The notes below the pieces were generated by a model that made no database searches, was not told the origin of the DNA, and saw nothing but the letters and a program-made list of their open reading frames with translations. Source: Candidatus Vecturithrix granuli (GTDB lineage Bacteria; Moduliflexota; Moduliflexia; Moduliflexales; Moduliflexaceae). From it: a DNA stretch of 64,000 nucleotides. Below are positions 38,816-55,786 of this stretch, in pieces. The DNA lies in assembly GCA_000739535.1 (NCBI GenBank), contig DF820475.1, positions 68,637 to 132,636 of the forward strand, in the 5' to 3' direction. Made by a program: the position numbers and the translations under genes. Position 1 is the stretch's first letter; each line of letters opens with the position of its first letter.

Positions 38816-41164
38816 ATGGGAAAATATTCGATCATTGGAGCGGGAATCAGCGGCTGTACGGTGGCTCTGGAACTGGCCGGACAGGGGCATGAGGTGACGC
38901 TGCTTGAAGCAAAATCGGTCATTGGCGGAGCGGTTCTGGACTACGCTTGTAAGGCGACCGATGAGTGCAGCCGCTGCGGTGTGTGCGTGGCTGTGACGCA
39001 GATTTCACAGGCAATTCAGCATCAGCGGATTACGACCATTGTCGCAGCGTCGTTGCAGGCGGTCAACCCCCATAATACGCACCTCGATTTCAGGCTTACC
39101 AGGAAAAATCCCGCGATTGATTATCATATCTGTACATTCTGCGATCTGTGCATTTCAGCCTGTCCCGAAGGGTGCATCACCAAAATACAGCGCGGCGAAT
39201 TAATCCAATACGCATTTGAGTATGAACGTTGCCGCCTGCATCAGGGAAATGCCTGTGGCTTATGCGCTGAACAGTGCCCGCAGCAGGCGATTTCAGCCCA
39301 ATCTTTGTTTACAGAAATGCAGTTCAGCAGTGACGCCGTCTTGATTGCCACAGGCCATGCGCCCTACAACGCCGCGCAGCACGTTCGTTTCGGGTACGGA
39401 CGACTTGCAAACGTGATGACCGGTCTTGAGGCCGAACAGATCTTAAGCCGTCAAAGTTCCTTAGGCGATCCCGCAGAGGATGTCGCCTTTATCCAGTGTG
39501 TCGGTTCCCGCGATCCGCGCATCGGCCGGAATTACTGTTCAAGCGTGTGCTGTGCGTATGCCTTGCGTCTGGCGCATATAATCAAATATCGTCACCCTGA
39601 AACGCCGGTTACGATCTATTACATTGATATTCAGCATTTTGATAAAACCTTTTCCTTATTCAGAAAAAGCGTTGAAGCGAGCGGCGTCCGTTTTGTGCGC
39701 GGGATACCGTTTCTGATTGATCGTTCGAGCAGCGGGAAATTGAAATTACACATTGAAAATATGGATGGCGAAGAGACGATTGTTGAACATGATCGCGTCG
39801 TGCTGTCAGTGGGCATGGGGCCGGCTGACGACGCCTCACAATGTGCGTCGTTCTTTGGCCTGGAGCGCGATCAATTCGGATTTTTTACGTCATCTACTCT
39901 GCCGAACGTATTTGTCAGCGGCACCTGTCAGGAACCGCAGAGCATTTCCGAAAGCATGACCGCTGCTCGTGCGATTGCCCTTGGTATGCTGGCTTGCAGC
40001 GGTTCTGTAAACAATGAACAACGCACTGCTCAGCGTCCAGGCAATGCCCTTGCAGATCGTTCTTTCGAACGCAAAAAAATCCCCTTGCAGCAGCAGGTGC
40101 TCGTGCTTGGCGATGGGATCGCCGCAAAAACAGTCGTGCAGGAATTACAAGGTTTGCACTATCCCGTTGCTTGTGTTGAGTCGGAAAATTTGCTGGAATT
40201 CGATGGAAATATCGGCAATTTTACCGCGAAAATCCGGACATCGGGCAATGTAAAATCTCAATCCTTCGGAGCGGTTGTGCTAGCCCCGCAGGAAAGCATT
40301 GCGAAGAATTTCGACCTGGGGCCCCATATTGCCTCATTCGCTGAGATTGACCAACTTCTTGATGAGTTAGCGACGCGCCGTGGGCCAATCTCCATCGGGT
40401 TGGTATTAGACCTGGAACGGGATGAGTCCAAAGCCAGCACAGAAACAGCATTCCAAATTGCAAAACACATCCAGATGCAGCCACGCTATCAGGCGTTCTT
40501 ATTTTGCCGCGACGTGCGCGTGGCTGCTAAAGACTTGGAAATGCGGTACGATGAGGTCAGGCAGGCCGGCGTGAATATCATCAAGTATGAAGGGCAGCTT
40601 ACCTTTGTACCAGCTGAAAATGGCGTGACAATCAGCTGTTGTGATCACATTTTACACCAGACCATCAGCGTCTATTGCGACCGGGTCGCCGTCAGTCCGT
40701 GGGAACTTGCCGCTCCGGAAAAGAACCCTCTGGCAGCATTCACCGGCGTTTCGACAGACACGTATCATCAGATGCAGGACAACAATATTCACCTGTTTCC
40801 GATTGACACCAATCGCCCCGGGATTTTTGTGGTAGGGGCCTGTCACGGGCAGCATTATCTGCCTCAAATCATGCAGGAAGCAAAAGCTGCTGCCCTTGAA
40901 GTTCACGCCTTACTTTCGCAAAAAGAGCTTGAAGTTGAATTATCCAACGCCGTGATTGACCCGGATAAATGTATTCTGTGCCTGACCTGTCTGCGGAGTT
41001 GTCCTCACAAAGCCATCTGGATCAACCACGAAAAAGGCGCGGCCGAAAGCCTGCCGCAGGTATGCAAAAAATGCGGCATCTGCGCCGGCGAATGTCCGGC
41101 CAAAGCCATAGAATTGCCGCTGTATCCGGATCGAGTCATCGAATGGCACAAATGTGACGAATGA
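38816..41164 (+). CDS. hdrA: HdrA-like flavin iron-sulfur oxidoreductase
   Basis: A 782-residue HdrA-family protein. N-terminal FAD motif IIGAGISGCTVALELAGQGHEVTLLEA (residues 5-31); the HdrA cluster CKATDECSRCGVC (about 46-58); ferredoxin motifs CTFCDLCISACPEGC (about 104-118) and CGLCAEQCPQ (about 148-157); the HdrA signature IQCVGSRDPRIGRNYCSSVCCAYAL (about 224-248); a second Rossmann-like segment LVLGDGIAAKTVV near 430; and two C-terminal [4Fe-4S] motifs CILCLTCLRSCP and CKKCGICAGECP. HdrA is the bifurcating flavoprotein of heterodisulfide-reductase complexes. It is the first redox gene after folD and is followed by an mvhD-like gene and metVF, the order seen in acetogen HdrABC-MvhD-MetVF complexes, except that HdrB is missing. 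Confidence 0.9.
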   Translation: MGKYSIIGAGISGCTVALELAGQGHEVTLLEAKSVIGGAVLDYACKATDECSRCGVCVAVTQISQAIQHQRITTIVAASLQAVNPHNTHLDFRLTRKNPAIDYHICTFCDLCISACPEGCITKIQRGELIQYAFEYERCRLHQGNACGLCAEQCPQQAISAQSLFTEMQFSSDAVLIATGHAPYNAAQHVRFGYGRLANVMTGLEAEQILSRQSSLGDPAEDVAFIQCVGSRDPRIGRNYCSSVCCAYALRLAHIIKYRHPETPVTIYYIDIQHFDKTFSLFRKSVEASGVRFVRGIPFLIDRSSSGKLKLHIENMDGEETIVEHDRVVLSVGMGPADDASQCASFFGLERDQFGFFTSSTLPNVFVSGTCQEPQSISESMTAARAIALGMLACSGSVNNEQRTAQRPGNALADRSFERKKIPLQQQVLVLGDGIAAKTVVQELQGLHYPVACVESENLLEFDGNIGNFTAKIRTSGNVKSQSFGAVVLAPQESIAKNFDLGPHIASFAEIDQLLDELATRRGPISIGLVLDLERDESKASTETAFQIAKHIQMQPRYQAFLFCRDVRVAAKDLEMRYDEVRQAGVNIIKYEGQLTFVPAENGVTISCCDHILHQTISVYCDRVAVSPWELAAPEKNPLAAFTGVSTDTYHQMQDNNIHLFPIDTNRPGIFVVGACHGQHYLPQIMQEAKAAALEVHALLSQKELEVELSNAVIDPDKCILCLTCLRSCPHKAIWINHEKGAAESLPQVCKKCGICAGECPAKAIELPLYPDRVIEWHKCDE

Positions 41165-41249
41165 TGGGGTGCTTATCACTGTTTTATATTCTTTTCGGAA
41201 TTTTGAGCAAATTCGTGTTATTCGTGATCTTCGATGACTCCTTAACGCA

Positions 41250-41627
41250 ATGATGAAGGAACAGAAGAAAATTGTGGTATTCTGTTGTGAAAATTCGGCC
41301 TATAAAGCGGCGCAGGCAGTGCAGGATTCCACGCTGCTTGAGGCAATAGATATTGTACGCCTGCCCTGTTCCGGAAAGATTGAGATTGGCCTGGTGTTAA
41401 AATGTTTTGAGCAAGATGTGCCCGGCGTGCTGATTCTGGCCTGTCCGATTGATAATTGTCAATATCTGACCGGCAATAAACGCGCGCGCAAACGGGTGGA
41501 GATGATCAAACAAGCCCTGCGCAACGCCGGCTATGACCAGAACAGAGTCAAACTCGACTTTCTGTCGTCAGTTGATACGCATAAATTCATCAATAGCGTG
41601 AAAGAAATGTTGACTGCTAAAGATTGA
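41250..41627 (+). CDS. Divergent MvhD-like hydrogenase iron-sulfur subunit
   Basis: A 125-residue protein of the MvhD/FlpD family, which hands electrons to HdrA through a [2Fe-2S] cluster. Matching blocks are IVVFCCENSAYKAA, RLPCSGKIEIGLVLKCFE and LILACPIDNCQYLTGNKRARKR. Compared with the usual FxCNWCSYAGAD motif (intact in the second copy at 50630-51058), the first pair reads FCCENS: the second usual Cys position is Ser and an extra Cys sits one residue earlier. The PCSGK and C-x5-C blocks are kept. It may therefore hold a different cluster or bind a different partner. It lies 85 bases after hdrA and 77 before metV. Confidence 0.83.
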   Translation: MMKEQKKIVVFCCENSAYKAAQAVQDSTLLEAIDIVRLPCSGKIEIGLVLKCFEQDVPGVLILACPIDNCQYLTGNKRARKRVEMIKQALRNAGYDQNRVKLDFLSSVDTHKFINSVKEMLTAKD

Positions 41628-41692: not shown

Positions 41693-41704
41693 CATTAATA
41701 CGCC

Positions 41705-42376
41705 GTGATTACTGCTGTTCAAAAGCCGTTTGAAGAAATTATTACGATGATTCAGGGGTACGAAAAACTCTTGATCCTCGGCTGCGGCTCCTGCGTGACG
41801 GTCTGTATGGTCGGAGGCGAAAAAGAAGTGGGCATTCTGGCCTCTACGCTGCGCCTGGCGCATAAGAAACAAAGCCGCTTCATGGAGATTCAAGAAGCCA
41901 CGATTACCCGCCAGTGCGATCGTGAATTTTTTGATGAGGTCAAAGATAATATCGCCTGGGCTGACGCCGTGTTATCCTTAGCCTGCGGCGTAGGCGTACA
42001 ATTTTGCAGCGAAGTGTTTCCGGGCAAGCGCGTGCTGCCGGCCCTGAACACCAAATTCTACGGTACAACCGAGCAGCAGGGAATTTGGACAGAGCGCTGC
42101 GGCGGCTGCGGAACCTGTGTGCTGGCTGATTTTGGGGGAATTTGTCCGATTGCGCGTTGCTCCAAAAGTCTGCTGAATGGCCCTTGCGGAGGGTCTGCCC
42201 ATGGCAAATGCGAGGTTGACCCGGACAATATTGACTGCGCCTGGCAGCTTATCTATGATCGCATGACCGCCCTGGGACTCTTGCACAAACTAGAAGAAAA
42301 TTATCCGATCAAAGATTGGAGCGCCGGACGCGACGGCGGCCCGGGCAAAATCGTCAGAGAAGATATGTTGTTATAA
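41705..42376 (+). CDS. metV: MetV, zinc-binding partner of methylene-THF reductase
   Basis: A 223-residue protein of the MTHFR C-terminal-type (MetV) family. The N-terminal half has LLILGCGSCVTVCMVGGEKEV; the C-terminal half carries the Cys-rich set ERCGGCGTCVLADFGGICPIARCSKSLLNGPCGGSAHGKCEV, matching the zinc/iron-sulfur motif of MetV. In acetogens MetV binds MetF and connects it to electron donors (established for Moorella-type complexes). The start is a GTG at 41705 with no evident ribosome-binding site; the repeat ends just upstream. It lies 15 bases before metF. Confidence 0.9.
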   Translation: MITAVQKPFEEIITMIQGYEKLLILGCGSCVTVCMVGGEKEVGILASTLRLAHKKQSRFMEIQEATITRQCDREFFDEVKDNIAWADAVLSLACGVGVQFCSEVFPGKRVLPALNTKFYGTTEQQGIWTERCGGCGTCVLADFGGICPIARCSKSLLNGPCGGSAHGKCEVDPDNIDCAWQLIYDRMTALGLLHKLEENYPIKDWSAGRDGGPGKIVREDMLL

Positions 42377-42391
42377 GCAGAAAGAGCATGT

Positions 42392-43348
42392 ATGAATACT
42401 AACGCATTCAAAGCCGGAAGTCGTTTGGAAAAAGTGCTGTATGCCGGACATTTTGCAGTCACGTCAGAGCTTGGCCCGCCGAAAAGCGCGGATGTGGATG
42501 TGATTCTCACAAAGGTCGGCTATCTAAAAGGTTACGTAGATGCGGTGAACATCACCGATAATCAAACCTCGATTGTGCGCATGTCCTCGCTGGCGACCGG
42601 ACTGATTGCCATGCAGCATGGATTGGAGCCGGTCGTGCAGATCACCTGTCGCGACCGCAACCGGATTGCGATTCAGAGCGATGTACTCGGAGCTTATGCC
42701 CTGGGGATCAGAAATATCCTCTGTTTGACCGGGGATCATCAGAAATTTGGCAATCATCCGACCTGCAAAAACGTGTATGACCTGGATTCAATCCAACTTA
42801 TCCACACCCTGAAAACCATGCGGGATGCGAAGACCTTCCTGTGCGGCGACGAGATCAGGAACAGCAAAAAATCACCGATTATGGAGCCGCGCATTTTTAT
42901 CGGCGGGGCCGCCAATCCTTTTGGCGATCCCTTTGAATTTCGGGTGATCCGCTTAGCCAAAAAAGTTAAAGCCGGCGTGGATTTCATCCAAACTCAATGT
43001 ATTTACGACATGGAACGCTTTGAAAAATGGATGGCTCTGGTACGTGAACGCGGATTGCACGAGCAAGTCAAGATTCTGGCTGGCGTCACGCCTTTGAAAT
43101 CAGCCAAAATGGCAATGTATATGCGCGACCATGTGGCTGGCTTAAAAATCCCGGATGTTTATATTGAACGGTTAATACAAGCAAAAGACGCCGCTGCCGA
43201 AGGGATTAATATCTGCGTTGAACAAATTCAACACCTTCGCACCATCGCGGGCGTGGCCGGCGTGCACATCATGGCAATTGAATGGGAACAGCGCGTGCCG
43301 GAAATTGTCGAAAGGGCTGGCTTGCTGCCGAGGCCAGAAGTTAAGTGA
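42392..43348 (+). CDS. metF: Methylenetetrahydrofolate reductase
   Basis: A 318-residue MetF TIM barrel that reduces methylene-THF to methyl-THF through FAD. Diagnostic blocks: FAVTSELGPPKSADVD near 22-37, AVNITDNQTSIVRMSSLATG near 52-71, RDRNRIAIQSDVLGAYALGIRNILCLTGDH near 88-117, and VDFIQTQCIYDMERFEKWM near 196-214. There is no NAD(P)H-binding extension, consistent with a bacterial MetF supplied by partner subunits. It follows metV closely, and the hdrC-like gene follows after a palindrome. Confidence 0.95.
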   Translation: MNTNAFKAGSRLEKVLYAGHFAVTSELGPPKSADVDVILTKVGYLKGYVDAVNITDNQTSIVRMSSLATGLIAMQHGLEPVVQITCRDRNRIAIQSDVLGAYALGIRNILCLTGDHQKFGNHPTCKNVYDLDSIQLIHTLKTMRDAKTFLCGDEIRNSKKSPIMEPRIFIGGAANPFGDPFEFRVIRLAKKVKAGVDFIQTQCIYDMERFEKWMALVRERGLHEQVKILAGVTPLKSAKMAMYMRDHVAGLKIPDVYIERLIQAKDAAAEGINICVEQIQHLRTIAGVAGVHIMAIEWEQRVPEIVERAGLLPRPEVK

Positions 43349-43448
43349 CTAAAACGACTAAAGTTTATAAGTGTCTAAAATTGTAAGATCTTGTGATTTT
43401 AGCCCACTTGTCACTTTAGTCATTTTAGTCACTTTAGTCACTTTAAAT
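43344..43448. repeat. Palindromic GTCACTTTAGTCA repeat overlapping the end of metF
   Basis: The metF stop region AAGTGACTAAAACGACTAAAG is mirrored by CTTTAGTCATTTTAGTCACTT at 43411-43431, with an extra GTCACTT unit. The right arm is open in frame and would add a spurious Val/Leu/Thr-rich leader to the next gene if the first ATG at 43371 were used. Confidence 0.75.
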
Positions 43449-43931
43449 ATGGAAACAATCACACTCACGAAACTTGATCCGAATTTTAAATTCGAGCTTG
43501 CCGAAAAGCCCGGCGCGGCCAATATTCGCAAATGCTATGCCTGCGGCACGTGTACGGCCGGATGCCCGGTGTTTCACGTGGAGCATACCTATAATCCGCG
43601 CAAACTGATTCATAAGATTCTGCTCGGTATGCGCGAACAGGTACTCAGTTCCAAGGTAATCTGGCTCTGTCTGCGCTGTTATACCTGTACGGCCAATTGT
43701 CCGCATGACGTTGATTTTTCCAATATCATGATGAGCCTGCGCGAGATGGCGATTGAAGAAGGCTATGCGCCGCCGGAAATCCTTGAGCAAATTGACTTCC
43801 TGACGACTGCTGCCAATGATTTACGTAAGGATTGTATTAATCTCTTCTTGCATGAAGGCGACATAACAAAAGAGCAAATCCGGGAGAATTTCGAAAAAAT
43901 GCTGCAACAGATAGAGAAACCGGGTTTTTGA
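43449..43931 (+). CDS. hdrC: HdrC-like iron-sulfur subunit
   Basis: A 160-residue protein with two [4Fe-4S] motifs: CYACGTCTAGCP near residues 27-38 and CLRCYTCTANCP near 68-79, followed by the HdrC pattern HDVDFSNIMMSLREMAIEEGY. HdrC carries electrons between HdrA and HdrB in heterodisulfide-reductase-type complexes. I place the start at 43449 (METITLTK) because the longer frame begins within a repeat. The last five residues EKPGF and the stop codon are supplied by an AGAAACCGGG palindrome at 43915-43947, an unusual repeat-derived C-terminus. No HdrB gene is present in the window. Confidence 0.88.
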   Translation: METITLTKLDPNFKFELAEKPGAANIRKCYACGTCTAGCPVFHVEHTYNPRKLIHKILLGMREQVLSSKVIWLCLRCYTCTANCPHDVDFSNIMMSLREMAIEEGYAPPEILEQIDFLTTAANDLRKDCINLFLHEGDITKEQIRENFEKMLQQIEKPGF

Positions 43932-43947
43932 CAAAAACCCGGTTTCT
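43915..43947. repeat. AGAAACCGGGTTTTT palindrome overlapping the hdrC stop
   Basis: AGAAACCGGGTTTTT (43915-43929) and AAAAACCCGGTTTCT (43933-43947) are exact complements with a GAC loop. The stop TGA of the hdrC-like gene lies in the loop, and the 5' arm encodes its last residues. Same repeat as 6531-6563. Confidence 0.8.
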
Positions 43948-43972
43948 TCCAGGTTTGCATGGGTTCGAAAAT

Positions 43973-44845
43973 ATGGAAAATAATAAAGTGGGCGCCGTGA
44001 TGGTGGTTGGAGCCGGGATTGCCGGAATTCAGGCATCTTTGGATCTGGCGGACAGCGGCTATAAAGTCTATCTGGTGGAGAAAGATCCATCCATTGGCGG
44101 TGTGATGACGCAACTGGATAAAACCTTTCCCACCAACGACTGCTCGATGTGCATTGTCTCCCCCAAATTGGTCGAGTGCAGCCGCCATGCTAACGTTGAA
44201 TTGTTAACATATTCAGACATCGAGAAGGTACAGGGGGAAGCCGGACATTTCACGATTCGGGTCAATAAAAAAGCGCGCTCCGTTGATCCGGCGAAGTGCA
44301 CCGGCTGCCGCGAGTGCATGACAGCCTGCCCGGTCAGCAAGCGCATTCAGATCCCGGAAACCATAGAGCAGGAAGAGACTGAAGAAACGCACATCACGGA
44401 TCAGATTATCGCGAAATACGGCGGTAAAAAACAGGCCTTGATTATGATCCTCCAGGACGTGCAGAACCGTTTTCATTATCTGCCTGAAGCCGCCCTGCGC
44501 CGGATCAGTACGCGCTTAGAACTCTCGTTTGCAGAAATTTACGGCACTGCCAGCTTTTATAAAGCTTTCAGCCTTGAACCGAGGGGACAACACATCATTC
44601 AGGTCTGCATGGGCACAGCCTGCCATGTGCGCGGCGCACAACGCATTTTAGAAGAATTCGAACGCCTGTTGAGCATCAACACCGGACAGACCACCGAAGA
44701 TCGCCTGTTTACTTTGGAAACCGTCAATTGTCTGGGAGCCTGCGCGCTGGGGCCGATTGTGACGGTTGACGAGGGCTATCACGGCAATATGACCCCGGGC
44801 GGAGCGGCGAAATTGATTGACAGATATGCCAAGAATAAAAGATAA
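43973..44845 (+). CDS. Fusion of HdrA N-terminal half with NuoE-like [2Fe-2S] domain
   Basis: A 290-residue fusion. Residues 1-120 are the FAD half of an HdrA: VMVVGAGIAGIQASLDLADSGYKVYLVEK at 9-37, DCSMCIVSP near 55-63, LLTYSDIEKVQG near 77-88, and the first ferredoxin motif CTGCRECMTACP near 108-119. There HdrA sequence stops. From about residue 140 a NuoE/HoxE thioredoxin-like domain follows (ALIMILQDVQNRFHYLP; cysteines in VCMGTACHVRG and NCLGACALGP), the usual [2Fe-2S] entry to NuoF. The missing HdrA half is fused to the NuoG-like protein at 47169. I chose ATG 43973; earlier frame lies in a repeat. It precedes the NuoF gene. Confidence 0.87.
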   Translation: MENNKVGAVMVVGAGIAGIQASLDLADSGYKVYLVEKDPSIGGVMTQLDKTFPTNDCSMCIVSPKLVECSRHANVELLTYSDIEKVQGEAGHFTIRVNKKARSVDPAKCTGCRECMTACPVSKRIQIPETIEQEETEETHITDQIIAKYGGKKQALIMILQDVQNRFHYLPEAALRRISTRLELSFAEIYGTASFYKAFSLEPRGQHIIQVCMGTACHVRGAQRILEEFERLLSINTGQTTEDRLFTLETVNCLGACALGPIVTVDEGYHGNMTPGGAAKLIDRYAKNKR

Positions 44846-44846
44846 C

Positions 44847-45058
44847 CTCACCCCCGGCCCTGCCTCCAAAGGAAAGGGGAGAAAAGTTCCCTCCTCCTTT
44901 GGAGGCAGGGCTGTTAAGTTCTACGCAATTTTGTCATCTCGACTTCGCTCGATGACCGGAACACCGGGCGTCGAGCGAAGTCAAGACGGCCTTTCTGACG
45001 AGAACTTAATAGCCATAGCCCTGCCCTTTGGGGGAGGGTTGGGGAGGGGGTAAAAACA
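44847..45058. repeat. Nested composite repeat (GTTAAGTTCT element inside a CCCTGCC repeat)
   Basis: Outer layer: CTCACCCCCGGCCCTGCCTC and the facing GCCCTGCCCTTTGGGGGAGG (44848-44912 and 45017-45050). Inside sits an element with ends GTTAAGTTCT (44913-44922) and AGAACTTAA (45001-45009), and inside that a GTCATCTCGACTTCGCTCGA / TCGAGCGAAGTCAAGA palindrome (44932-44986). The same stack recurs at 53419-53640. Confidence 0.8.
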
Positions 45059-45060
45059 GC

Positions 45061-46989
45061 ATGAACAGATTAGGATCCAGCCAGGAACTTGCACAGCTAC
45101 GCGCTACGTTTGAAACGCAAAGCTCGCAAAAACCGATTGAGGTGATTATCTCAACCCATGCGTCTTGCTGTCTGTTGCGAGGCAGTCAGGCGGTGGCCGA
45201 CGCATTTCAGGCAGAACTTGCCCGCGCCGGGTTGACGGAACAGGTCAATGTGCGTTTGACCGGTTGCCTGGGGTTTTGTGAGATCGAACCAATGGTGATT
45301 ATCGCGCCGCAAAAGGAGTGCGAAAGTTCTACTTTCGCGAGCAAGGAGTGCGAAAGTTCTACTTTCGCAAGTAATGTGCTCTATCAAAAAGTGACGCCCG
45401 AAGATGTCAGACCGATCATCAGCGACACTATTCAGCAGCAGCAGATTATCGAACGCCTGCTCTATGTGGAGCCATTGACAAAAGAAAAAAAGGTCGGTAA
45501 AGCGGATGTGTCCTTCTATCAAAAACAGTATCGCCTGGTGTCGGGGTTGAATGAATATCTCAATCCACGGCGGATTGAAGATTACATCGCCATCGGTGGG
45601 TATTCCGCCTTAGCAAAGGTGTTGGACAGCCTGTCGCCGGAAGAGGTGATTGAAGCCATCAAAGCCTCTGGTCTGCGCGGCAGAGGTGGCGGCGGTTTTC
45701 CGACAGGTCGCAAATGGGAAACCTGTCGTAAGGCTGAAAGCGAAGACGGTGTGCGCTATATCATCTGTAATGCCGACGAAGGGGATCCGGGCGCATATAT
45801 GGATCGTTCGGTACTGGAAGGCAACCCGCATTCGGTGCTGGAAGGCATGATTATCGCTTCGTATGCGGTTGGATCGCACGAAGGCTATGTGTATGTGCGC
45901 GCTGAATATCCGCTGGCGGTCGAACATCTGAATCTGGCCTTAGCGCAGGCCGAAAACTATGGCTTGTTAGGACACAATATTTTGGGAAGCGGACACGATT
46001 TCAGCATTCACGTGGCTAAAGGGGCCGGAGCCTTTGTGTGCGGCGAATCAACCGCGTTGATGGCCTCCCTCGAAGGCCGCGTCGGGCGACCGCGCGCCAA
46101 ATACGTGCATACCGTTGAACGCGGCTTGTGGAATAAACCGAGCTGCCTCAATAATGTGGAAACCTTTGCCAATGTCCCGCGCATCCTGGAAAAAGGGGTT
46201 GACTGTTTCCGGCAAATCGGCACTGAAGGCAGCAAGGGCACGAAAATTTTTTCCTTAGTGGGCAAAATTCATAACACCGGCCTGGTAGAAGTACCGATGG
46301 GAATTTCTCTGCGGGAGATCATTTTTGAGCTTGGCGGCGGCATCCCCAAAGGCAAAAAATTTAAAGCCGTACAGACCGGCGGCCCTTCCGGCGGCTGCCT
46401 GCCGGAAAAGTTGTTGGATTTACACGTTGATTTCGACGAATTGAGCAAAGCCGGGTCTATGATGGGTTCGGGCGGCATGATCGTGATGGATGAGGACACC
46501 TGCATGGTGGATGTGGCCCGCTATTTCCTCAATTTTCTCAAAGGCGAATCCTGCGGCAAATGTGTGCCCTGCCGCGAAGGGGTCCGGCGCATGTTACAAA
46601 TTTTGGAACGCATTTGTCACGGGCAGGGGCAGGAGGAGGATTTAGCCACCCTGGAAGAACTGGGCGAATATCTCAAAGATTCCGCCTTATGCGCGCTGGG
46701 GACGACCGCAGCCAATCCGGTGCTCAGCACCTTAACTTATTTCCGGGATGAATATCTGACTCATATTCGTGAAAAATATTGCCCGGCTGGCGTGTGTAAG
46801 GACTTGTTTCAATTCAAAATCGCCCCGGAGGCCTGTACCGGCTGCGGCGTATGCCGCAAACAGTGCCCGACCGCGGCCATCAGCGGCGAACGCAAAGCGG
46901 TGCATATTATTGATCAAGCGACCTGCATCCGCTGCGGCGTGTGCTATGATGTCTGCCGCTTTGATGCAATTCGAAAAGCACGATTATAA
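45061..46989 (+). CDS. NuoF-like NADH dehydrogenase subunit with ferredoxin tail and repeat insertion
   Basis: A 642-residue NuoF/HoxF/HydB-type protein. It has an N-terminal thioredoxin-like [2Fe-2S] domain (HASCCLLRGSQ, TGCLGFCEIEPMV), the FMN/NADH domain (GLRGRGGGGFPTGRKWE near 203-219; CNADEGDPGAYMDRSVLEGNPH near 238-259; GAYVC-like GAGAFVCGESTALMASLEG near 320), the N3 [4Fe-4S] motif SCGKCVPCREGVRRM near 495-510, and two C-terminal ferredoxin motifs CTGCGVCRKQCP and CIRCGVCYDVC. It would oxidise NADH or reduce NAD. Residues 85-104 are two copies of KECESSTFAS, coded by a tandem 30-base palindromic repeat inserted in frame. ATG 45061 chosen; the frame before it is repeat. Confidence 0.92.
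   Translation: MNRLGSSQELAQLRATFETQSSQKPIEVIISTHASCCLLRGSQAVADAFQAELARAGLTEQVNVRLTGCLGFCEIEPMVIIAPQKECESSTFASKECESSTFASNVLYQKVTPEDVRPIISDTIQQQQIIERLLYVEPLTKEKKVGKADVSFYQKQYRLVSGLNEYLNPRRIEDYIAIGGYSALAKVLDSLSPEEVIEAIKASGLRGRGGGGFPTGRKWETCRKAESEDGVRYIICNADEGDPGAYMDRSVLEGNPHSVLEGMIIASYAVGSHEGYVYVRAEYPLAVEHLNLALAQAENYGLLGHNILGSGHDFSIHVAKGAGAFVCGESTALMASLEGRVGRPRAKYVHTVERGLWNKPSCLNNVETFANVPRILEKGVDCFRQIGTEGSKGTKIFSLVGKIHNTGLVEVPMGISLREIIFELGGGIPKGKKFKAVQTGGPSGGCLPEKLLDLHVDFDELSKAGSMMGSGGMIVMDEDTCMVDVARYFLNFLKGESCGKCVPCREGVRRMLQILERICHGQGQEEDLATLEELGEYLKDSALCALGTTAANPVLSTLTYFRDEYLTHIREKYCPAGVCKDLFQFKIAPEACTGCGVCRKQCPTAAISGERKAVHIIDQATCIRCGVCYDVCRFDAIRKARL
45313..45372 (+). repeat. Tandem in-frame palindromic repeat inside nuoF
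   Basis: Two copies of a 30-base unit (45313-45342, 45343-45372) with core GCGAAAGTTCTACTTTCGC. The same word occurs in an intergenic palindrome at 56010-56089 and, in related form, as the interior of the MITEs. Unit length is a multiple of three, so the frame is kept and each adds KECESSTFAS. Confidence 0.85.
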
Positions 46990-47004
46990 CTTGTGAGGTG
47001 CCTC

Positions 47005-47172
47005 ATGACCACCCATGATCAACATGACATCATCCGGTCTGTAGAAAACGGTGAATGGCAGTCTGTAGAGAATTTTGAAGACGTCAAAAAAAGCTTGATA
47101 CAGGCTGCATCCAAAACAGCGTTAAAGAATTATCGTATTAATGTCAGAATTTCAAGGAATCCGGGAAAGTGA
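47005..47172 (+). pseudogene. Truncated CopG/BrnA-type antitoxin remnant
   Basis: A 55-codon frame with GAGGTG upstream: MTTHDQHDIIRSVENGEWQS..., then LIQAASKTALKNYRINVRIS and RNPGK before TGA. The sequence matches the N-terminal and ribbon start of BrnA/CopG-type antitoxins (ESFENGEW..., then KDKRINIRIS in typical members), but it stops where the ribbon-helix-helix helices (usually EGIPYQTLI) should follow. The TGA overlaps the GTG start of the next gene (GTGA). No toxin gene is adjacent. It is probably the remnant of a toxin-antitoxin locus caught inside the redox operon. Confidence 0.6.
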
Positions 47173-50100
47173 ATATTACAATTAATGGCAAAAGCGTTCA
47201 GGTTGAAGAGGGGCAGACGATCCTTGAAGTCGCCAAAGACCTGAATATCGGCATTCCGACCCTCTGCTTTCACTCTGCGCTCGAAGCTTATGGCGGCTGC
47301 CGCTTATGCGTGGTTGAGGCCCGGCGCGGCAGGTGGTCGAAACTGGTCACGTCGTGCAATTACGAAGTCTGGGACGGATTGGAAGTCTTGACGAATTCCG
47401 AGCGCGTTCATAAAAGCCGTAAAATGACCGTCGAACTATTATTGGCGCGCTGCCCGGAAGTCGAAGCGCTGCAACGCCTGGCGCGCGCCTATAAAATCAG
47501 CGAGCCGCGTTTCCCCAAAGAGCAGGATGATTGCGTTTTATGCGGCTTGTGTGTGCGCATCTGTCAGGAGCGTATGGGGGTCGGCGCGGCTAGCTTTGTA
47601 GGACGCGGCGCGGAAGTTCGCGTTGACACGCCGTACAGCCGAGGCAGCGAGGTCTGCATCACCTGCGGTGCGTGCGTGAGCGCCTGTCCGACGCAATCCA
47701 TTCGCCTGAACAGCGTATTTCCGCAAAAACTTGTACCGCAAAAAGCGGAATTCGAGCTGGGGTTGAAAGAACGCCCGACCATCTACATCCCTTTTACCCA
47801 GGCGCTGCCGAATGTGCCGGTGATAGATCGCAGCAATTGCGTCCATTTTTATAACGGCGCGTGTAAAACCTGTCAGGAGATCTGCCCGGCCGAGGCCATT
47901 GATTACACCCAGGAAGATGAAGCCGTGGAGCTTGACGTTGGCGCGGTCATCTTAACGCCCGGATTTTGCCTGTACGATGCGGCTCAGAAACCGCAATACG
48001 GCTATGCGCTGTATCCGAACGTTGTTACCAGCTTGCAGTTCGAACGCCTTCTCTCTGCCAGTGGGCCGTGCATGGGGGAAGTACGACGTCCTTCGGATCA
48101 GCGGATTCCCCATCGCATTGCTTTTATCCAGTGTGTGGGTTCCAGAGAAACGGAACACAACTTTTGTTCTTCCGTGTGCTGCATGTACGCCATCAAAGAA
48201 GCCATCATCGCCAAAGAACATGAAAAAGACGTGATGTGCGATATTTTTTACATGGACATCCGCGCGTATGGTAAGGGTTTCGACGCCTATTACGATCGCG
48301 CCAAAGAGATCGGGATCCACTTCACCCCCTGCCGTCCTTCAAAAATCGAAGAGATTCACGCCAATCACAACCTACTCATCACGTACATTGAAGAAGATGG
48401 AACCTGCCAGCGCAAAGAATTCGAGATGGCCGTGCTGTCCGCCGGATTTCAACCGCCGGAACAGGTGCAGGAGTTGGCAGACAAATTTGGGCTGGCGTTG
48501 AATCAGCATGGCTTTGCCGTGACCGATCCCTTTGATCCGGTCGCCACATCGCGCAAAGGGGTATATGTGTGCGGCCCATTTTCCGAACCGAAAGATATCC
48601 CCGAAACCGTAGTCGAAGCCTCAAACGCCTCATCGCGTGCTATGATTGACCTGGCGGAGGTGCGCGGCACCCAGATTGTCGAACATCCGCTGCCTCCGGA
48701 GCGGGATGTACGCGGAGAACCGCCGCGCATCGGCGTCTTTGTCTGCCATTGCGGTCGTAATATCGGCGCCTATGTGGATGTACCCTCGATTGCGGACTAT
48801 GCCAAAACGCTCCCCCATGTCGTGTATAGCACGGATACACTCTACACCTGTTCTTCGGACACACAGGTCTTCATCAAAGACGCCATTCTCGAGCACCATC
48901 TGAATCGCATTGTTGTCGCCTCCTGTTCGCCGCGCACGCATGAACCGCTGTTCCAGGAAACCATCCGCGAAGTCGGACTCAATCCGCATCTCTTTGAAAT
49001 GGCGAATATCCGCGATCAGTGCTCCTGGGTGCACATGTTTGAGCATGACTCAGCAACCGCAAAATCCAAAGATCTGGTCAGAATGGCAGTTGCAAAATCG
49101 GCGTTGACCGAACCGCTGATTTCCATCCCGCTCGACGTGACGGCCAAAGCCTTAGTGCTCGGCGGCGGGGTCGGCGGCATGACCGCCGCGCTTGGGATTG
49201 CGAACCAGGGCTACGAGGTCTTTCTGGTCGAAAAAACCGCCAATTTAGGTGGAAATGCCCTGAAGATCGAACACGATTTGTACGGCAATGATGTCAGAAA
49301 ATATCTTAAAGCCCTGCAAAATCAAGTCCGGACTCATCCGTTGATCACAGTATTTACCAATGCCCAGATTGCTAAAGTTGACGGATTTATCGGTAACTTT
49401 GTGAGTACGATCGAGACGCGGAACGTTATGCCAAAGCAAGCTTTGGCACTCCAGACGCAGCAGACAGAGGTGAAACACGGCGTGGTAATCGTTGCTACTG
49501 GCGGCAGTGAACATGCGCCGACAGAATATCTGTACGGAACCAATTCCCGCGTGAAAACCCTGCTTGATTTGAGCGAGGCTCTGGCAACTGGCGAGTTTAC
49601 GGTTCCTGATACGGTGGTGATGATTCAGTGTGTCGGGTCGCGCGAACCCGATCATAATTATTGCAGCCGCATCTGCTGCGCCGGGGCCATTAAAAATGCG
49701 ATCCGCATGAAAAAGATGAATCCTGACGCAAACATTTTCATTCTGTATCGCGACATCCGCACCTATGGCTTTCGCGAAGAATATTACGGCGTCGCCCGCG
49801 ATCTAGGGATCAACTTTATTCGCTACACATTGGAACGCAAACCGGGTGTGACCGCAGAGAATGGAAACTTGACGGTCAGCGTGTATGATGCGATTCTGGA
49901 CGCAACATTGGAAATCTCAACGGATTTGCTGGTGTTAAGCAGCCGGATCGATCCGAACCCGGATAATGACCACATTTCCCAACTCTTGAAAGTGCCCTTA
50001 AATAGCGAGAAATTCTTCTTAGAGGCGCATGTCAAACTGCGTCCGGTCGAATTTGCGACCGATGGGGTCTATGTCTGCGGCTTAGCCCACTATCCTAAAG

Positions 50101-50408
50101 ATATCAAAGAAACGATTTCGCAGGCCATGGCGACCGCCGGACGGGCTGCCACGGTGTTGAGTAAAGACAAAATCGAAGCGGCCGGGAAGATTGCCTATGT
50201 CAACGCCGTGCGCTGCAGCGGCTGCGGCGCGTGTGTAACGGTCTGCGCCTATAATGCGATCAGCCTGGATAACGAACGGCAAATTGCGGTGATTAACGAA
50301 GCCTTATGCAAAGGCTGCGGCGCGTGCGCTGCCACCTGCCGCGGGAGCGCGATTAAACTGCATGGCTTTGAAGATGAACAGATTCTGCGTATGTTAAACG
50401 TGCTTTAA
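47169..50408 (+). CDS. NuoG N-terminus + HdrA C-half + complete HdrA fusion protein
   Basis: A 1079-residue protein. Residues 1-75 are a NuoG-like [2Fe-2S] domain (TLCFHSALEAYGGCRLC...TSCNYEV); CVLCGLCVRICQE (about 121-133) and CITCGACVSACP (about 165-176) are ferredoxin motifs. At about 200 the sequence joins HdrA exactly past its first ferredoxin: RPTIYIPFTQALPNVPVIDR, CKTCQEICPAEAIDYTQ, SLQFERLLSASGP, IQCVGSRETEHNFCSSVCC. A whole second HdrA begins near 520 (IGVFVCHCGRNIGAYVDV), with FAD motif VLGGGVGGMTAALGIAN near 662 and IQCVGSREPDHNYCSRICC near 818, and C-terminal ferredoxin motifs CSGCGACVTVC and CKGCGACAATC. GTG start at 47169 overlaps the preceding TGA. Confidence 0.88.
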   Translation: MNITINGKSVQVEEGQTILEVAKDLNIGIPTLCFHSALEAYGGCRLCVVEARRGRWSKLVTSCNYEVWDGLEVLTNSERVHKSRKMTVELLLARCPEVEALQRLARAYKISEPRFPKEQDDCVLCGLCVRICQERMGVGAASFVGRGAEVRVDTPYSRGSEVCITCGACVSACPTQSIRLNSVFPQKLVPQKAEFELGLKERPTIYIPFTQALPNVPVIDRSNCVHFYNGACKTCQEICPAEAIDYTQEDEAVELDVGAVILTPGFCLYDAAQKPQYGYALYPNVVTSLQFERLLSASGPCMGEVRRPSDQRIPHRIAFIQCVGSRETEHNFCSSVCCMYAIKEAIIAKEHEKDVMCDIFYMDIRAYGKGFDAYYDRAKEIGIHFTPCRPSKIEEIHANHNLLITYIEEDGTCQRKEFEMAVLSAGFQPPEQVQELADKFGLALNQHGFAVTDPFDPVATSRKGVYVCGPFSEPKDIPETVVEASNASSRAMIDLAEVRGTQIVEHPLPPERDVRGEPPRIGVFVCHCGRNIGAYVDVPSIADYAKTLPHVVYSTDTLYTCSSDTQVFIKDAILEHHLNRIVVASCSPRTHEPLFQETIREVGLNPHLFEMANIRDQCSWVHMFEHDSATAKSKDLVRMAVAKSALTEPLISIPLDVTAKALVLGGGVGGMTAALGIANQGYEVFLVEKTANLGGNALKIEHDLYGNDVRKYLKALQNQVRTHPLITVFTNAQIAKVDGFIGNFVSTIETRNVMPKQALALQTQQTEVKHGVVIVATGGSEHAPTEYLYGTNSRVKTLLDLSEALATGEFTVPDTVVMIQCVGSREPDHNYCSRICCAGAIKNAIRMKKMNPDANIFILYRDIRTYGFREEYYGVARDLGINFIRYTLERKPGVTAENGNLTVSVYDAILDATLEISTDLLVLSSRIDPNPDNDHISQLLKVPLNSEKFFLEAHVKLRPVEFATDGVYVCGLAHYPKDIKETISQAMATAGRAATVLSKDKIEAAGKIAYVNAVRCSGCGACVTVCAYNAISLDNERQIAVINEALCKGCGACAATCRGSAIKLHGFEDEQILRMLNVL
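49428..49452 (+). repeat. In-frame palindrome inside the NuoG-HdrA gene
   Basis: TGCCAAAGCAAGCTTTGGCA (49429-49448), followed by CTCC, has 9-base perfect arms. Read on the other strand it is GGAGTGCCAAAGCTTGC..., a relative of the MITE interior and of the nuoF insertion. It codes MPKQALALQ at residues 754-762, in a loop of the second HdrA domain. Confidence 0.65.
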
Positions 50409-50412
50409 GAAC

Positions 50413-50619
50413 TGCCCACGAAACACACGAAAAGACACGAAAAAAAGAATGAAAAGAGGCGTTGGTCGTTGTTTCGGCCAACACTACAACGGATTTGGGA
50501 ATGGAACAGATTGTCCAGATCATTATCCGTTGAATTCTCAAATCCGTTGTAGTATTAGCCGAAACGATGATCAATATTTTCATTCTTTTTCCGTGTCTTT
50601 CCGTGTGTTCCGTGGGCCA
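50413..50619. repeat. Nested inverted repeat between NuoG-HdrA and mvhD
   Basis: Outer arms 50413-50455 and 50577-50619 pair along CCCACGAAACACACGAAAAG and its counterpart. An inner palindrome has arms GTTTCGGCCAACACTACAAC (from 50471) and GTTGTAGTATTAGCCGAAAC (to 50565). The outer arms are related to the 2474-2757 element. The mvhD frame runs back into the repeat up to 50567, but this is not coding. Confidence 0.8.
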
Positions 50620-50629
50620 TTCTTCTGCT

Positions 50630-51058
50630 ATGGAAAATTGGGAACCGAAAATTGTGGCGTTTTTATGTAACTGGTGTTCGTATGCCGGGGCGGATCTGGC
50701 CGGAGTCAGCCGTTTACAATACGGCACAAATATCCGGGTGATTCGGGTGCCTTGCTCAGGACGCGTGAATCCGTTGTATATCCTCAAAGCCTTGCAAAAC
50801 GGCGCAGATGGTGTGCTGGTTTCCGGCTGTCATCCGGGAGATTGTCACTACATCAGCGGCAATCTGGCGGCGCGGCGCAAATTTGCCCTGATCAAAAATT
50901 TGCTGGAATATGTAGGCCTTGAACCGCAGCGAGTGCAATTCTCCTGGGTATCGGCGTCCGAAGGACAACGCTTTGCAACCCTGATCAACAAAGTCATCGA
51001 AGATGTCAAAAAAGTCGGCCCGGCCAAAAAACTTGTGAAGAACTTGAGCGAATTCTAA
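50630..51058 (+). CDS. mvhD: MvhD/FlpD-type hydrogenase iron-sulfur subunit
   Basis: A 142-residue MvhD with all canonical motifs: AFLCNWCSYAGADLAGVSR near residues 9-27, RVPCSGRVNPLYILKAL near 41-57, and GVLVSGCHPGDCHYISGN near 62-80. MvhD binds a [2Fe-2S] cluster and links an electron source (hydrogenase or dehydrogenase) to HdrA. The start at 50630 (MENWEPKIV) leaves the preceding repeat. It follows the NuoG-HdrA gene and so probably binds one of its HdrA domains. The stop TAA coincides with the flank of a decayed MITE copy. Confidence 0.92.
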   Translation: MENWEPKIVAFLCNWCSYAGADLAGVSRLQYGTNIRVIRVPCSGRVNPLYILKALQNGADGVLVSGCHPGDCHYISGNLAARRKFALIKNLLEYVGLEPQRVQFSWVSASEGQRFATLINKVIEDVKKVGPAKKLVKNLSEF

Positions 51059-51298: not shown

Positions 51299-53251
51299 AT
51301 GTATAAAATGAGTCTTAGAAACAAACTGATATTTACCATTATTCCACTGATGATCATCACAATTACCATCTTGATGATCATTTCCTATTGGCAGTCCTCG
51401 CGGGCGATTCTATCGCAAAATACAGAATATTTGGAACAAATCGTCCAAAAGACGGTTGATGAACTAACCTTCTGGATTGAAGAACGGGAACGCGAGATCA
51501 CGTTACTCAGCCAGGAGACTCTCCTGCACAAGGCATGTTCAGGACAGGATCTGGCAGAAGCGCAGCAACGCTTAACCAGCTACCACCAACAGTCCCCGGT
51601 GTATGAAGCGATCTTTTTGACCGATCCGCAAGGGGTGGTTTTGATGACTTCAACGCAACAGCAGATCGGACTTGATTTGACACAAAAACCAGAATATGCC
51701 GAAAATATCGCCCAGGCGCAACAGGGGCAGCTCTGGATTGGAACGGTTGAAAAAGCACCTGACACTGGCAGACCGGTCGTCTTAATTACCGCGCCGATTA
51801 TGGTAAACGACAAAATGATTGGAATTCTTGGAACTCCTATTGAAGTAGATTATTTTTCAGAGCAGCGTGTCAGCCAGCAAAAAGTCGGGAAGGATGGGTA
51901 CTTCACGATGTTAGATCAAACCAAGAAAATCCTGGCGCACCCGGATAAAAAAATGATCATGACGGCAGCTACTCTGGGGTCGGCTCTGGGGCCCGATAGC
52001 CAGACGCAGAAGCAGGGTCAATATGTTTATGACTGGAATGGCGTTGAGAAAATCATGAACTTTCAAACTTGCCCACGCACCGGGTGGTTGGTGGCAGCGA
52101 CAATTACAAAAGATGAACTTTTTCAAGAAATCAATCGTTCCCGGAACATGGCGATTGGGTTAGGAATCGGCTGTATTGTCGTGGCGTCGCTGGCAATCTG
52201 GTGGATTATGGTGAACAACCTCTCCGCTCCGATCCGCGCAACCGTCGAATTTGTCAAAAAGGTGTCCGCTGGAGACCTCTCTGAGATCATGGAGGTGAAT
52301 CGTCAGGATGAGTTAGGTGTGTTATTACAGGCCATGAGTCAGATGATTATGAAACTCCGGCAGGTGGTGTCAGATGTCAAATACGCGGCAGAGAATGTGG
52401 CTTCTGGCAGTCAAGGTATGAGCGCCAGCGCAGAAATCATGTCGCAGGGCGCGACCGAACAAGCGACAGCCTCAGAAGAAGCGTCAGCTTCCATGCAAGA
52501 AATGACCGCCAATATTCGTCAGAATGCGGAGAATGCCTTACAAACCGAAAAGCTGGCGCTGCAAGCGGCTGAGGACGCACGCCTCAGCGAAGCAGCCGTC
52601 ACACAAGCGGCTCAGGCCATGCAGCAAATTGCTCAAAAAGTCGCAATTATTGATGACATTAGCCGGCAAACCCGCATGCTCTCGCTGAATGCGACGATTG
52701 AGGCTGCCCGCGCGCAAGAGTATGGGAAAGGGTTCGCAGTGGTCGCGTCGGAAGTTCGGGCGTTAGCCGAACGCAGCCAGACCGCGGCCGCAGAAATCAC
52801 CGAACTCGCCAGTTCATCGGTGATTATCGCTGAAAAAGCCGGCGGGATGTTGCAACAACTTGTACCCCATATTCAACAGACCGCCGAATTAGTGCAAGAG
52901 ATTGCGGCTGCCACTCGGGAGCAAGATACCGGGACCCAACAGATCAATCAGGCGATTCTCCAACTGGATCAGGTCACACAGCAGAATTCTTCCACCTCCG
53001 AGGAATTAGCCGCGACCTCCGAAGAGTTGGCCGGACAAGCTGAAATGCTCCAGCAGACCATTGCCTTTTTCAAAACGGATGACACTCATCATGACCACCT
53101 GCTGCCAGAAGAGCGCGAGGCAATCCGTCAGAGGGAGCAAAAAAAATCAACTCCTACAGCTAGTGCCTCTACCGCCCATCAGAAGGTGCGGAGTGAGAAG
53201 GCAACAGCAGTTGAAAGGGACGCCCATGATGATGAGTTCGAGCGATTTTAG
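51299..53251 (+). CDS. Methyl-accepting chemotaxis protein with double Cache sensor
   Basis: A 650-residue chemoreceptor. TM1 at about 10-30, a dCache_1-like periplasmic sensor ([60 protein letters not shown]), TM2 at about 280-303, HAMP ([28 protein letters not shown]), and a cytoplasmic signalling tip [39 protein letters not shown]. The C-terminal tail is long, charged and ends in [12 protein letters not shown]. It sits inside the Hdr/Nuo redox cluster, between mvhD and the FrhB-like gene. This may be coincidence, or a receptor for a substrate of the pathway. It has its own promoter. Confidence 0.95.
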
Positions 53252-53707: not shown

Positions 53708-54709
53708 ATGGAACAACAACTTCAGGAGATTGCCAGATCGCTGATTGTGCAACAGGAAATTGACCTGTTGATCGGTTATGAACAAGGGTCCTTGCCGTTG
53801 ACAAGCAGACCGTTGTTTATCAAAGTCAAAGGCGCAAAACAGCCGGAAAAATCGGTCGAAAAACTGGCCTGGAATGCTTTTTGCTCGAATAATCTGGCGG
53901 TCTTTCTGCCTAAATATTTTGAGCGCACTCCTTTTGCCCGCAAACATCCGCCCAAACCGAGGATCGGGATCATCGCCAAAGGCTGCGATTTACGCTCGAT
54001 TGTGACGCTCATCAAAGAAAAACAAGCGCCGCGAGAGAACCTGGTCTTGATTGGCGTTCCCTGTCAGGGCATGATTGATCGCCGCAAAATCGAAGAGCGG
54101 ATGGCAGGCGAAACTGTCCGCGATTATCAGGAGCAGGAGGGAATCTTGAACCTTACAACCGGCAGCGGGAAAACGTATGCTCTGAGCAAAGAAGAGGTGT
54201 TGCAAGAGGCTTGCCGTGAGTGTCGTTACCCCATGCCCGCAGGCGTGGATTATCTGATCGAAGGGACCGCCAGAAATCCGGCGCAAAACAGCTATGCGCA
54301 GATTGAGGCATTTGAAGCCCAAACGCCCCAGGAACGCTGGGCCTATTTCGAACAGGAAATGGCAAAATGTATTCGCTGCTACGCCTGCCGCCAGGCCTGC
54401 CCGACCTGTTGGTGCAAAGAGTGTTTTGCCGAACAGACGGATTTGAAATGGATCGGGGCCAGCACGAATCTGTCGGATGCCATGATCTTTCATCTGACCC
54501 GTATTTTTCACCAGGCCGGACGCTGCGTGGAGTGCGACGCCTGTTACCGCGCCTGTCCGATGGGGATTGACTTACGCACCTTTACCAAAAAAATCGGCAA
54601 GGATGTCGAACACTTGTTCCAATTTACGCCAAATTTTGATCCGGACACGATCCCGCCGATTTCGACGTTTAAAGAAACGGATAGCGACAGCTTTATCACG
54701 GAACCGTAG
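53708..54709 (+). CDS. Dicluster [4Fe-4S] electron-transfer protein with FrhB-like domain
   Basis: A 333-residue iron-sulfur protein. The N-terminal two-thirds resembles FrhB/FdhB-type flavin- or F420-binding subunits (IGIIAKGCDLRSIVTLIKE, NLVLIGVPCQGMIDRRKIEE), with CRECRYPMPAGVDY near 175. The C-terminal third has two cluster motifs, CIRCYACRQACPTCWC near 221-236 and CVECDACYRACPMG near 273-286, the second HdrC-like. No membrane segments. It is followed by an AsrA/HydB-like gene 54 bases later; the pair would pass electrons between NADH/ferredoxin and the Hdr complex. This assignment to a role is inference. Confidence 0.75.
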   Translation: MEQQLQEIARSLIVQQEIDLLIGYEQGSLPLTSRPLFIKVKGAKQPEKSVEKLAWNAFCSNNLAVFLPKYFERTPFARKHPPKPRIGIIAKGCDLRSIVTLIKEKQAPRENLVLIGVPCQGMIDRRKIEERMAGETVRDYQEQEGILNLTTGSGKTYALSKEEVLQEACRECRYPMPAGVDYLIEGTARNPAQNSYAQIEAFEAQTPQERWAYFEQEMAKCIRCYACRQACPTCWCKECFAEQTDLKWIGASTNLSDAMIFHLTRIFHQAGRCVECDACYRACPMGIDLRTFTKKIGKDVEHLFQFTPNFDPDTIPPISTFKETDSDSFITEP

Positions 54710-54763
54710 GGAATTGGGTAACTACAGGAATGAGGAATAAGCAAGAATTTGAGGATTGAGGTT

Positions 54764-55786
54764 ATGCATCAAGGAATTTTGACAAAGCAGGAATTGAACG
54801 CGCTGATCAGCGCGGCGGCGCAAGAGGCAGAGGTGTATGCCCCGGCCAAAGGCCGGAATGGGGTTGAGTATCTCAAAACGAGCGGAGCAGAGCAGGTAGC
54901 TTTTGACTATGTGAATATCAAGCTTTCACCCAAAAGCCTGTTTTTTCCGCAAAAAGAAGTGATTTGCCGCTTTTGCGGCGATACCCTGAGTGACGCGCCT
55001 GCGCCGGAAGAAAAGCTGATTGTCCTGGGCGCGAGACCTTGCGATGTCCGTTCCCTGCTGTGTCTGGATAAGGTCTTTGCCGATCAGACCAGTCAGTTTG
55101 CCGATCCCTATTATCTCTCGCGCCGAAATAATGCTCTCATCATCACCTTCGCCTGTCATACACCGGCCCCAACCTGTTTCTGCACTACCGTCGGCGGCAG
55201 TCCGACTGAACCCACCGGCTCGGATATTCTGGCGACAGAATTAGAGGATGAACTGCTGTTTGAAGCCTGCTCTGAGAAAGGCGGCACGTTTCTGGAAACT
55301 TATAAGACCTTCTTTCAGCCGCCAACCGAGGAGCATCTCAGAAGAAAAGATGAACAGGCCGCGCAGGCCGCCGAGCAGTTGCACGAATTCAATATTGAGG
55401 GCATCAAAGCGAAACTTGACCGCCTCTTTGAAGAAAGTGTGTGGGAAACACTCACCAACACCTGTTTAGGCTGCGGCGTGTGTACCTATTTATGCCCTAC
55501 CTGCCATTGTTTTGATATCAGCGACGAAACCAACGCCAAAGGCGAAGGCGTGCGTCTGCGCACCTGGGATTCCTGTCAATATCCCCTCTTTACGCTGCAC
55601 GCCTCCGGTCATAATCCGCGCGTCAACAAAAAGCAGCGTATGCGCCAGCGCATCATGCACAAATTTTCCTATACCGTGGAGAACGTGGATGACATTTATT
55701 GCGCCGGCTGCGGCCGCTGCGTCATCCATTGCCCCGTCAACCTGGACATCCGCGAAATGTTGCAGACCCTCGTTCTTGCGCCGTAG
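54764..55786 (+). CDS. AsrA/HydB-like [4Fe-4S] dicluster protein
   Basis: A 340-residue protein of the anaerobic sulfite reductase A / sulfhydrogenase beta family. Typical blocks are VNIKLSPKSLFFPQKEVIC, LGARPCDVRSLLCLDKVF near 88-105, and two C-terminal cluster motifs CLGCGVCTYLCPTCHCFD near 230-247 and CAGCGRCVIHCPVNLD near 313-328. AsrA-type subunits accept electrons from an FAD/NAD(P)H subunit (AsrB/HydG-like); one is encoded at 33132-33977. The ATG at 54764 has GAGG five bases upstream; a TTG at 54749 is less likely. No sulfite reductase (AsrC) gene is present. Confidence 0.85.
   Translation: MHQGILTKQELNALISAAAQEAEVYAPAKGRNGVEYLKTSGAEQVAFDYVNIKLSPKSLFFPQKEVICRFCGDTLSDAPAPEEKLIVLGARPCDVRSLLCLDKVFADQTSQFADPYYLSRRNNALIITFACHTPAPTCFCTTVGGSPTEPTGSDILATELEDELLFEACSEKGGTFLETYKTFFQPPTEEHLRRKDEQAAQAAEQLHEFNIEGIKAKLDRLFEESVWETLTNTCLGCGVCTYLCPTCHCFDISDETNAKGEGVRLRTWDSCQYPLFTLHASGHNPRVNKKQRMRQRIMHKFSYTVENVDDIYCAGCGRCVIHCPVNLDIREMLQTLVLAP

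Follow-up and report, generated by a model that had tools for sequence, protein, structure and literature searches.

A split HdrA that may carry a Bfu-type NADH module in its ferredoxin port, in Candidatus Vecturithrix granuli and in other bacteria and archaea

Genes at the locus

The window, which is the whole 64,000-nucleotide stretch of Candidatus Vecturithrix granuli contig DF820475.1 analysed here, contained the ordered genes folD, a 782-aa HdrA-like gene, mvhD, metV, metF, hdrC, two HdrA-containing genes with nuoF between them, mvhD, a chemoreceptor-like gene and two Fe-S genes (Table 1). Spirochaetota relatives retained this order from the HdrA-like gene onward. The 782-aa flavoprotein (38816-41164) showed altered Cys spacing and adjoined metV/metF. 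A 650-aa protein resembling methyl-accepting chemotaxis receptors (51299-53251) separates mvhD from the two Fe-S genes; in L023, L024 and L026 these two genes come directly after mvhD with no receptor gene between.

Table 1. Features of the split HdrA cluster in the window.
Feature	Position	Strand	Evidence and content
782-aa HdrA-like flavoprotein and second MvhD	38816..41627	+	conserved in L024, L025
metV and metF, methylene-THF reductase	41705..43348	+	PF12225, PF02219; same order in L023-L025
HdrC-like subunit	43371..43931	+	TIGR03290 6e-25, under its cut-off
HdrA N-terminal half	43973..44347	+	FAD GxGxxG, Cys194/Cys197 loop, first four-Cys motif of inserted ferredoxin (44297-44329)
NuoE/BfuC domain, behind HdrA half	44375..44845	+	PF01257, 5e-50
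NuoF/BfuB	45028..46989	+	thioredoxin-like N-terminus, FMN domain, 4Fe-4S domain, C-terminal 2[4Fe-4S]; TIGR01959
NuoG/BfuA-type N-terminus	47169..47723	+	[2Fe-2S] and 2[4Fe-4S] domains; PF13510 and Fer4 matches, HydA/HoxU matches
HdrA C-terminal half	47745..48668	+	5odc 262 to about 565; second four-Cys motif (47838-47885), E356, K409, Cys386/399/403/404
Second HdrA unit	48717..50366	+	cluster domain at the N-terminus, TrxR domain lacking the inserted ferredoxin, ferredoxin at the C-terminus
MvhD-like subunit	50567..51058	+	PF02662 2.5e-55
Two Fe-S proteins, second AsrA/ShyB-like	53708..55786	+	conserved downstream in Spirochaetota loci

HdrA divided between two chains

The initial annotation had read the 290-residue protein at 43973-44845 as the FAD region and first ferredoxin motif of HdrA continued by NuoE, and profile search and alignment confirmed both the coordinates and the fusion. 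Its residues 2-123 aligned to Methanothermococcus wolfeii HdrA (5odc) 136-260 with E 8e-42 (phmmer); the open reading frame can also be read as 305 residues from 43928, in which case residues 17-138 correspond to this segment. The 1079-residue protein at 47169-50408, annotated as NuoG-type clusters joined to HdrA just after the missing point, was likewise as described: residues 1 to about 185 were NuoG/HoxU-like and HdrA resumed at 5odc 262. Within this protein, residues 193-395 aligned to 5odc 262-462, 517-746 to 2-232, and 897-1076 to 465-646.

Alignment to full-length HdrA, proposed as a check on the two halves, revealed a single break within the inserted ferredoxin domain, with no overlap and no gap of consequence. 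The first half retains CTGCRECMTACP and stops right behind CTGCRECMTACPV; the second half is opened by AEFELGLKERPTIYIPFTQALPNVPVIDRSNC, picks up at EFELGLKERPTIYIPFTQALPNVPVID and retains the second four-Cys motif. In unsplit homologues, such as L011, AEFELGLKERPTIYIPFTQALPNVPVIDRSNC comes directly next. Overlapping or non-matching ends, the finding that would have spoken against complementary halves, were looked for and were absent.

Bifurcating-type HdrA, a flavoprotein that splits electrons, is a single polypeptide, and here it is encoded by two genes with nuoF in between. The FAD GxGxxG motif, E356, K409 and Cys386/399/403/404 were all present, distributed across the two chains, and the eight Cys of the inserted 2[4Fe-4S] ferredoxin were found as four invariant Cys per chain.

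The long chain had also been credited with a complete extra HdrA. This did not hold, because the second HdrA unit has no inserted ferredoxin and no Cys197, and carries Ser at the position of E356. Cys197 was missing from the second unit in all tandem proteins compared; therefore the short chain is the sole source of Cys197 within the pair.

The AlphaFold single-chain models were middling, with mean pLDDT of 76 and 73 for the two chains. The short-chain model was weakest at 44-57 and 103-127, corresponding to the Cys194/197 loop and the half ferredoxin, and the long-chain model at 118-218. In fold comparison, residues 517-1071 of the long chain matched HdrA, and the short chain matched NuoE with its HdrA half barely covered. 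Low confidence at the split ferredoxin may fit an absent partner or thin alignments alike, and it was given no weight.

The NADH module

The best PDB sequence match of the NuoE domain was 7t2r_C, from a bifurcating NiFe hydrogenase, and the closest solved protein to NuoF was the BfuB subunit (7t2r_B, E 5e-223) of such a hydrogenase from A. mobile. Bfu enzymes are recognised by a BfuB with C438, C476 or T, H525, C531 and C536, together with a C-terminal 2[4Fe-4S] domain, and the His of the B2 cluster is absent from non-bifurcating homologues (PMC9304861). The window NuoF has all five B2 ligands in register (C438, C476, H525, C531 and C536, A. mobile numbering) as well as the C-terminal 2[4Fe-4S] domain, and the H-x5-C-x4-C motif that holds B2 ligands was found in every full-length split NuoF. 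Homologues of BfuC and BfuA are also present, both fused to the HdrA halves. The inserted module is thus a predicted Bfu core of the bifurcating type, since the B2 ligands including the His are complete and 7t2r_B is the nearest solved protein. The initial annotation had not recognised NuoF as the Bfu bifurcating type.

Two features of nuoF genes were observed in passing. At 45313-45372, the window nuoF contains a 23-bp repeat twice (GAGTGCGAAAGTTCTACTTTCGC, with inverted-repeat ends), in frame and encoding KECESSTFAS-KECESSTFAS; the repeat gave 46 matches over many contigs of the same genome and the reversed control gave 0. This element is a short interspersed repeat tolerated within a conserved protein, and its presence on many contigs ties the window contig to the genome. 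On the reverse strand of L149 (G104:C35), a split HdrA cluster contained a NuoF of 1031 aa fused to a GltD/NfnB domain, which replaces its C-terminal ferredoxin.

Recurrence of the split

Scanning 84,980 species genomes once for HdrA'-NuoE reading frames brought up 18 further loci over both domains, which belonged to Spirochaetota (L023-L026), Altiarchaeales (L027), Stahlbacteria/WOR-3 (L028, L033, L036, L038), Thermoplasmatota (L029, L030, L034, L035, L044, L077), and Desulfobacterota and 'Deltaproteobacteria' (L031, L032, L037). Five more (G004, G104, G137, G149, G286) came from a survey of 385 genomes, giving 23 split loci beyond the window, in bacteria and archaea. The order hdrA'-nuoE, nuoF, nuoG-hdrA'' was found in 22/22 continuing contigs, the window included; L025 and L030 stop at a contig edge and were left out of this count. 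The junction was identical in all split sequences compared (N- and C-halves aligned with those of the window, further ones by inspection). G104 appeared to be a HdrA'-NuoE without partner, a reading that was rejected once the region was extended and nuoG-hdrA'' was found downstream.

The search of related genomes suggested by the initial annotation thus found the same split in these 23 loci. An intact HdrA at the same locus, which might have marked the split as an artefact, was also looked for; relatives keep the split, and the intact and GltD forms are homologous alternatives that give no indication of a frameshift. Its repeated occurrence across numerous bacteria and archaea suggests that the split is a genuine, reused means of hard-wiring NADH to HdrA.

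Do the halves form one HdrA?

Cys194 and Cys197 were invariant in 20/20 N-halves, and E356, K409 and Cys386/399/403/404 in 17/17 C-halves. The first-motif Cys (C109/C112/C115/C119) were invariant in 19 rows, and over the split loci all eight Cys of the inserted ferredoxin were invariant, four per chain. In ordinary 2[4Fe-4S] ferredoxins, each cluster is ligated by three Cys of one motif and one of the other, and with the eight Cys divided four and four the clusters should therefore be common to both chains. E356 and K409 are marks of bifurcating HdrA flavins (PMC12054007, PMC9430772), and Cys197 serves the partner HdrA as a ligand of its N-terminal cluster (PMC9012536).

Three loci (G004, G137, G286) contained one type I HdrA that is split, and the second HdrA unit was absent from those genes; the N-terminal domain is on the short chain and the C-terminal ferredoxin ends the long chain. 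The halves of G004 span 5odc 4-259 and 252-646, and they adjoin hdrC and an HdrB-like reading frame, the latter identified by reading its sequence. Two closely related Thermoplasmata have different forms at the same locus, with neighbours 94-98% identical: L065:2296-6780 encodes a one-piece HdrA-GltD and L077:1874-7950 the split HdrA-NuoEFG, the shared HdrA stretches compared being about 76-77% identical in DNA. The short chain is under purifying selection between L024 and L025, with dN/dS of 0.13 in the HdrA half and 0.09 in the NuoE part.

On these sequence data, we put at about 80% the probability that the two halves form one HdrA whose ferredoxin port is occupied by the NADH module. The complementarity proposed earlier, with NuoF encoded between the halves, was borne out by matching ends, identical junctions in unrelated phyla and conservation of the shared ligands; the proposed link of NADH chemistry to HdrA by this arrangement was upheld by the junctions, the ligands, the splits of a single HdrA and the same-locus swap.

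It could be argued that the halves do not rebuild one HdrA, the piece borne by NuoE being a docking tag while the NuoG-linked HdrA works through the second TrxR alone, since the second unit brings a Rossmann motif of FAD type and a C-terminal ferredoxin of its own. We consider this improbable: catalytic and ligand residues are retained in both halves at every locus tested, G004, G137 and G286 have no second unit to take over, and in the window lineage this unit is without E356 and Cys197. An artefact of assembly, binning or frameshift, or recent decay of an ordinary HdrA, might be considered for a genome with 10.75% estimated contamination, but would be extremely unlikely given the identical junction in many independent assemblies of two domains, the halves being separate genes with nuoF between, the purifying selection on the short chain, and the nuoF repeat shared with many other contigs of the same genome. 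The artefact or frameshift reading was rejected because the split recurs across many assemblies.

If the halves do rebuild HdrA, the module between them could still be a plain NADH dehydrogenase feeding HdrA and not a bifurcating Bfu core. Bifurcation is not readable from sequence with certainty, and direct input from NADH has been suggested for HdrA of the GltD type (PMC12054007); the B2 motif with H525 and the C-terminal 2[4Fe-4S] in all full-length split NuoF argue for the Bfu core, which makes a plain dehydrogenase the less probable module, though one to be taken seriously.

History of the split

In the HdrA-core tree the split form was not one clade (AU test against one clade, p 3e-91, quick tree), and the NuoF proteins of split loci are spread over four or more positions among the other BfuB proteins. 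A single origin by descent was accordingly not supported. The split form is scattered over the trees, which speaks of a complex history; given the identical junction and gene order, transfer with part replacement, reversions and repeated insertion are all possible.

Proposed electron route and metabolic role

We propose that a Bfu-type NADH module (NuoE as BfuC, NuoF as BfuB, the NuoG N-terminus as BfuA) was inserted at gene level into the HdrA ferredoxin port. Once assembled, possibly through the docking of NuoE and NuoG on NuoF that the initial annotation had proposed, the halves would restore a single FAD domain and a single 2[4Fe-4S] ferredoxin domain, so that the flavin site would form only upon assembly and the iron-sulfur clusters of the port would be liganded by both chains. 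The second HdrA unit may have its N-terminal cluster ligated by Cys197 of the NuoE chain. Electrons entering from NADH or leaving to it would pass FMN, the BfuA clusters, the inserted ferredoxin clusters and the FAD of the split HdrA, a route that would replace free ferredoxin at the port. Beyond the FAD, they might go to HdrC/MetVF, and via the second HdrA unit to MvhD.

The genes metVF, hdrC, hdrA and mvhD form one cluster at 38816-51058, and also in L023-L025, as in the Hdr-type methylene-THF reductase; the initial annotation had not mentioned MetVF here. No HdrB was found beside the window's HdrC, and the sole CCG protein of the genome lies on another contig. The genome encodes formate-THF ligase but gave no match to CdhC, the acetyl-CoA synthase family, and with the single CCG protein elsewhere, classic acetogenesis is not indicated. 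Going by gene order and the Moorella Hdr-type enzyme, the window reaction is likely the reduction of methylene-THF linked to NADH, or the opposite reaction, with a low-potential carrier coupled to it; that the split HdrA serves MetVF as an NADH-linked Hdr-type methylene-THF reductase has roughly even odds on the same analogy. Elsewhere the split HdrA adjoins HdrC, HdrBC or further HdrA genes, and the module is therefore not bound to MetVF.

Taken furthest, this would be one hard-wired enzyme with bifurcating centres of two kinds, namely the FMN/iron-sulfur core of Bfu and the FAD of HdrA, the latter arising only where two separately translated chains meet and share clusters, with the port as a socket for NuoEFG, GltD or bare cluster chains; we advance this whole picture tentatively and rate it somewhat below even. 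How anaerobes pass electrons among NADH, ferredoxin and the metabolism of C1 compounds or sulfur is governed by HdrA complexes. With its port split in a conserved way, HdrA would come naturally in two pieces, so that the build-up of a bifurcating flavin site could be tested by mixing subunits, and one route by which NADH is wired to Hdr-type methylene-THF reductases would be revealed. Domain-wise annotation ('NuoE', 'FAD-dependent oxidoreductase') would mask this arrangement.

Comparison with related and known systems

The same scan found tandem HdrA without insert in 30 reading frames and with GltD in the ferredoxin domain in 28. Eight intact tandem HdrA loci have mvhD, nuoE and nuoF downstream as separate genes, and nuoG too where the contig continues; these resemble BamDEFGHI, as assigned by gene order. 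Three Desulfofustis-type proteins (L050:3883-7572, L069:2439-6317, L085:8842-12606) are one-chain HdrA with 2[4Fe-4S] and NuoG-type 2[4Fe-4S] stretches at the split site, without NuoE or an FMN domain, and with mvhD, metV and metF downstream; they may be collapsed descendants of the split form. The same-locus exchange between L065 and L077, together with these one-chain forms, suggests that the HdrA ferredoxin port is a swappable input socket.

In the portions of the open-access literature searched, no description of a split HdrA or of an HdrA-NuoE/NuoG fusion was found. HdrABC-MvhAGD of methanogens (5odc) shares homologous HdrA domains, cofactor ligands and Cys197 with the window, but there HdrA is a single chain and the port is used by free ferredoxin. 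The Hdr-type methylene-THF reductase of Moorella and Sporomusa (HdrCBA-MvhD-MetVF, PMC9430772) likewise has metV, metF, hdrC, mvhD and a two-TrxR HdrA clustered, whereas in the window HdrA is split with NuoEFG and the cluster contains no hdrB. In Bam-Bfu (class II benzoyl-CoA reductase BamDEFGHI, PMC9304861) a BfuABC module also occurs with HdrA; there BamE (HdrA) is intact, BfuA and BfuC are separate proteins and the partner enzyme is another one, while in the window HdrA is split and BfuA and BfuC are fused to it.

GltD-inserted HdrA has been published as type III HdrA (PMC12054007); ANME-1 HdrA 9-11 have an NfnB-like insert (PMC9012536), HdrL was described as a heterodisulfide reductase/glutamate synthase fusion (PMC2702500), and the Moorella HdrA of the MetVF complex is a GltD variant with reported NADH:benzyl viologen activity (PMC9430772). 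Type III HdrA, HdrL and Moorella HdrA, like the split form, have a pyridine-nucleotide module within the inserted ferredoxin domain, and the Moorella form shares the tandem scaffold and the MetVF association with loci found here. In these proteins GltD is in cis, immediately ahead of the second Cys motif of one polypeptide; in the split form, whose two chains in the window contain no GltD, the insert is NuoE/F/G, lies just after the first motif, and leaves HdrA as two proteins. The NuoEFG split is the counterpart of GltD-inserted HdrA with another module and a slightly shifted insertion point, and GltD-inserted HdrA and Bam-Bfu are its nearest known forms.
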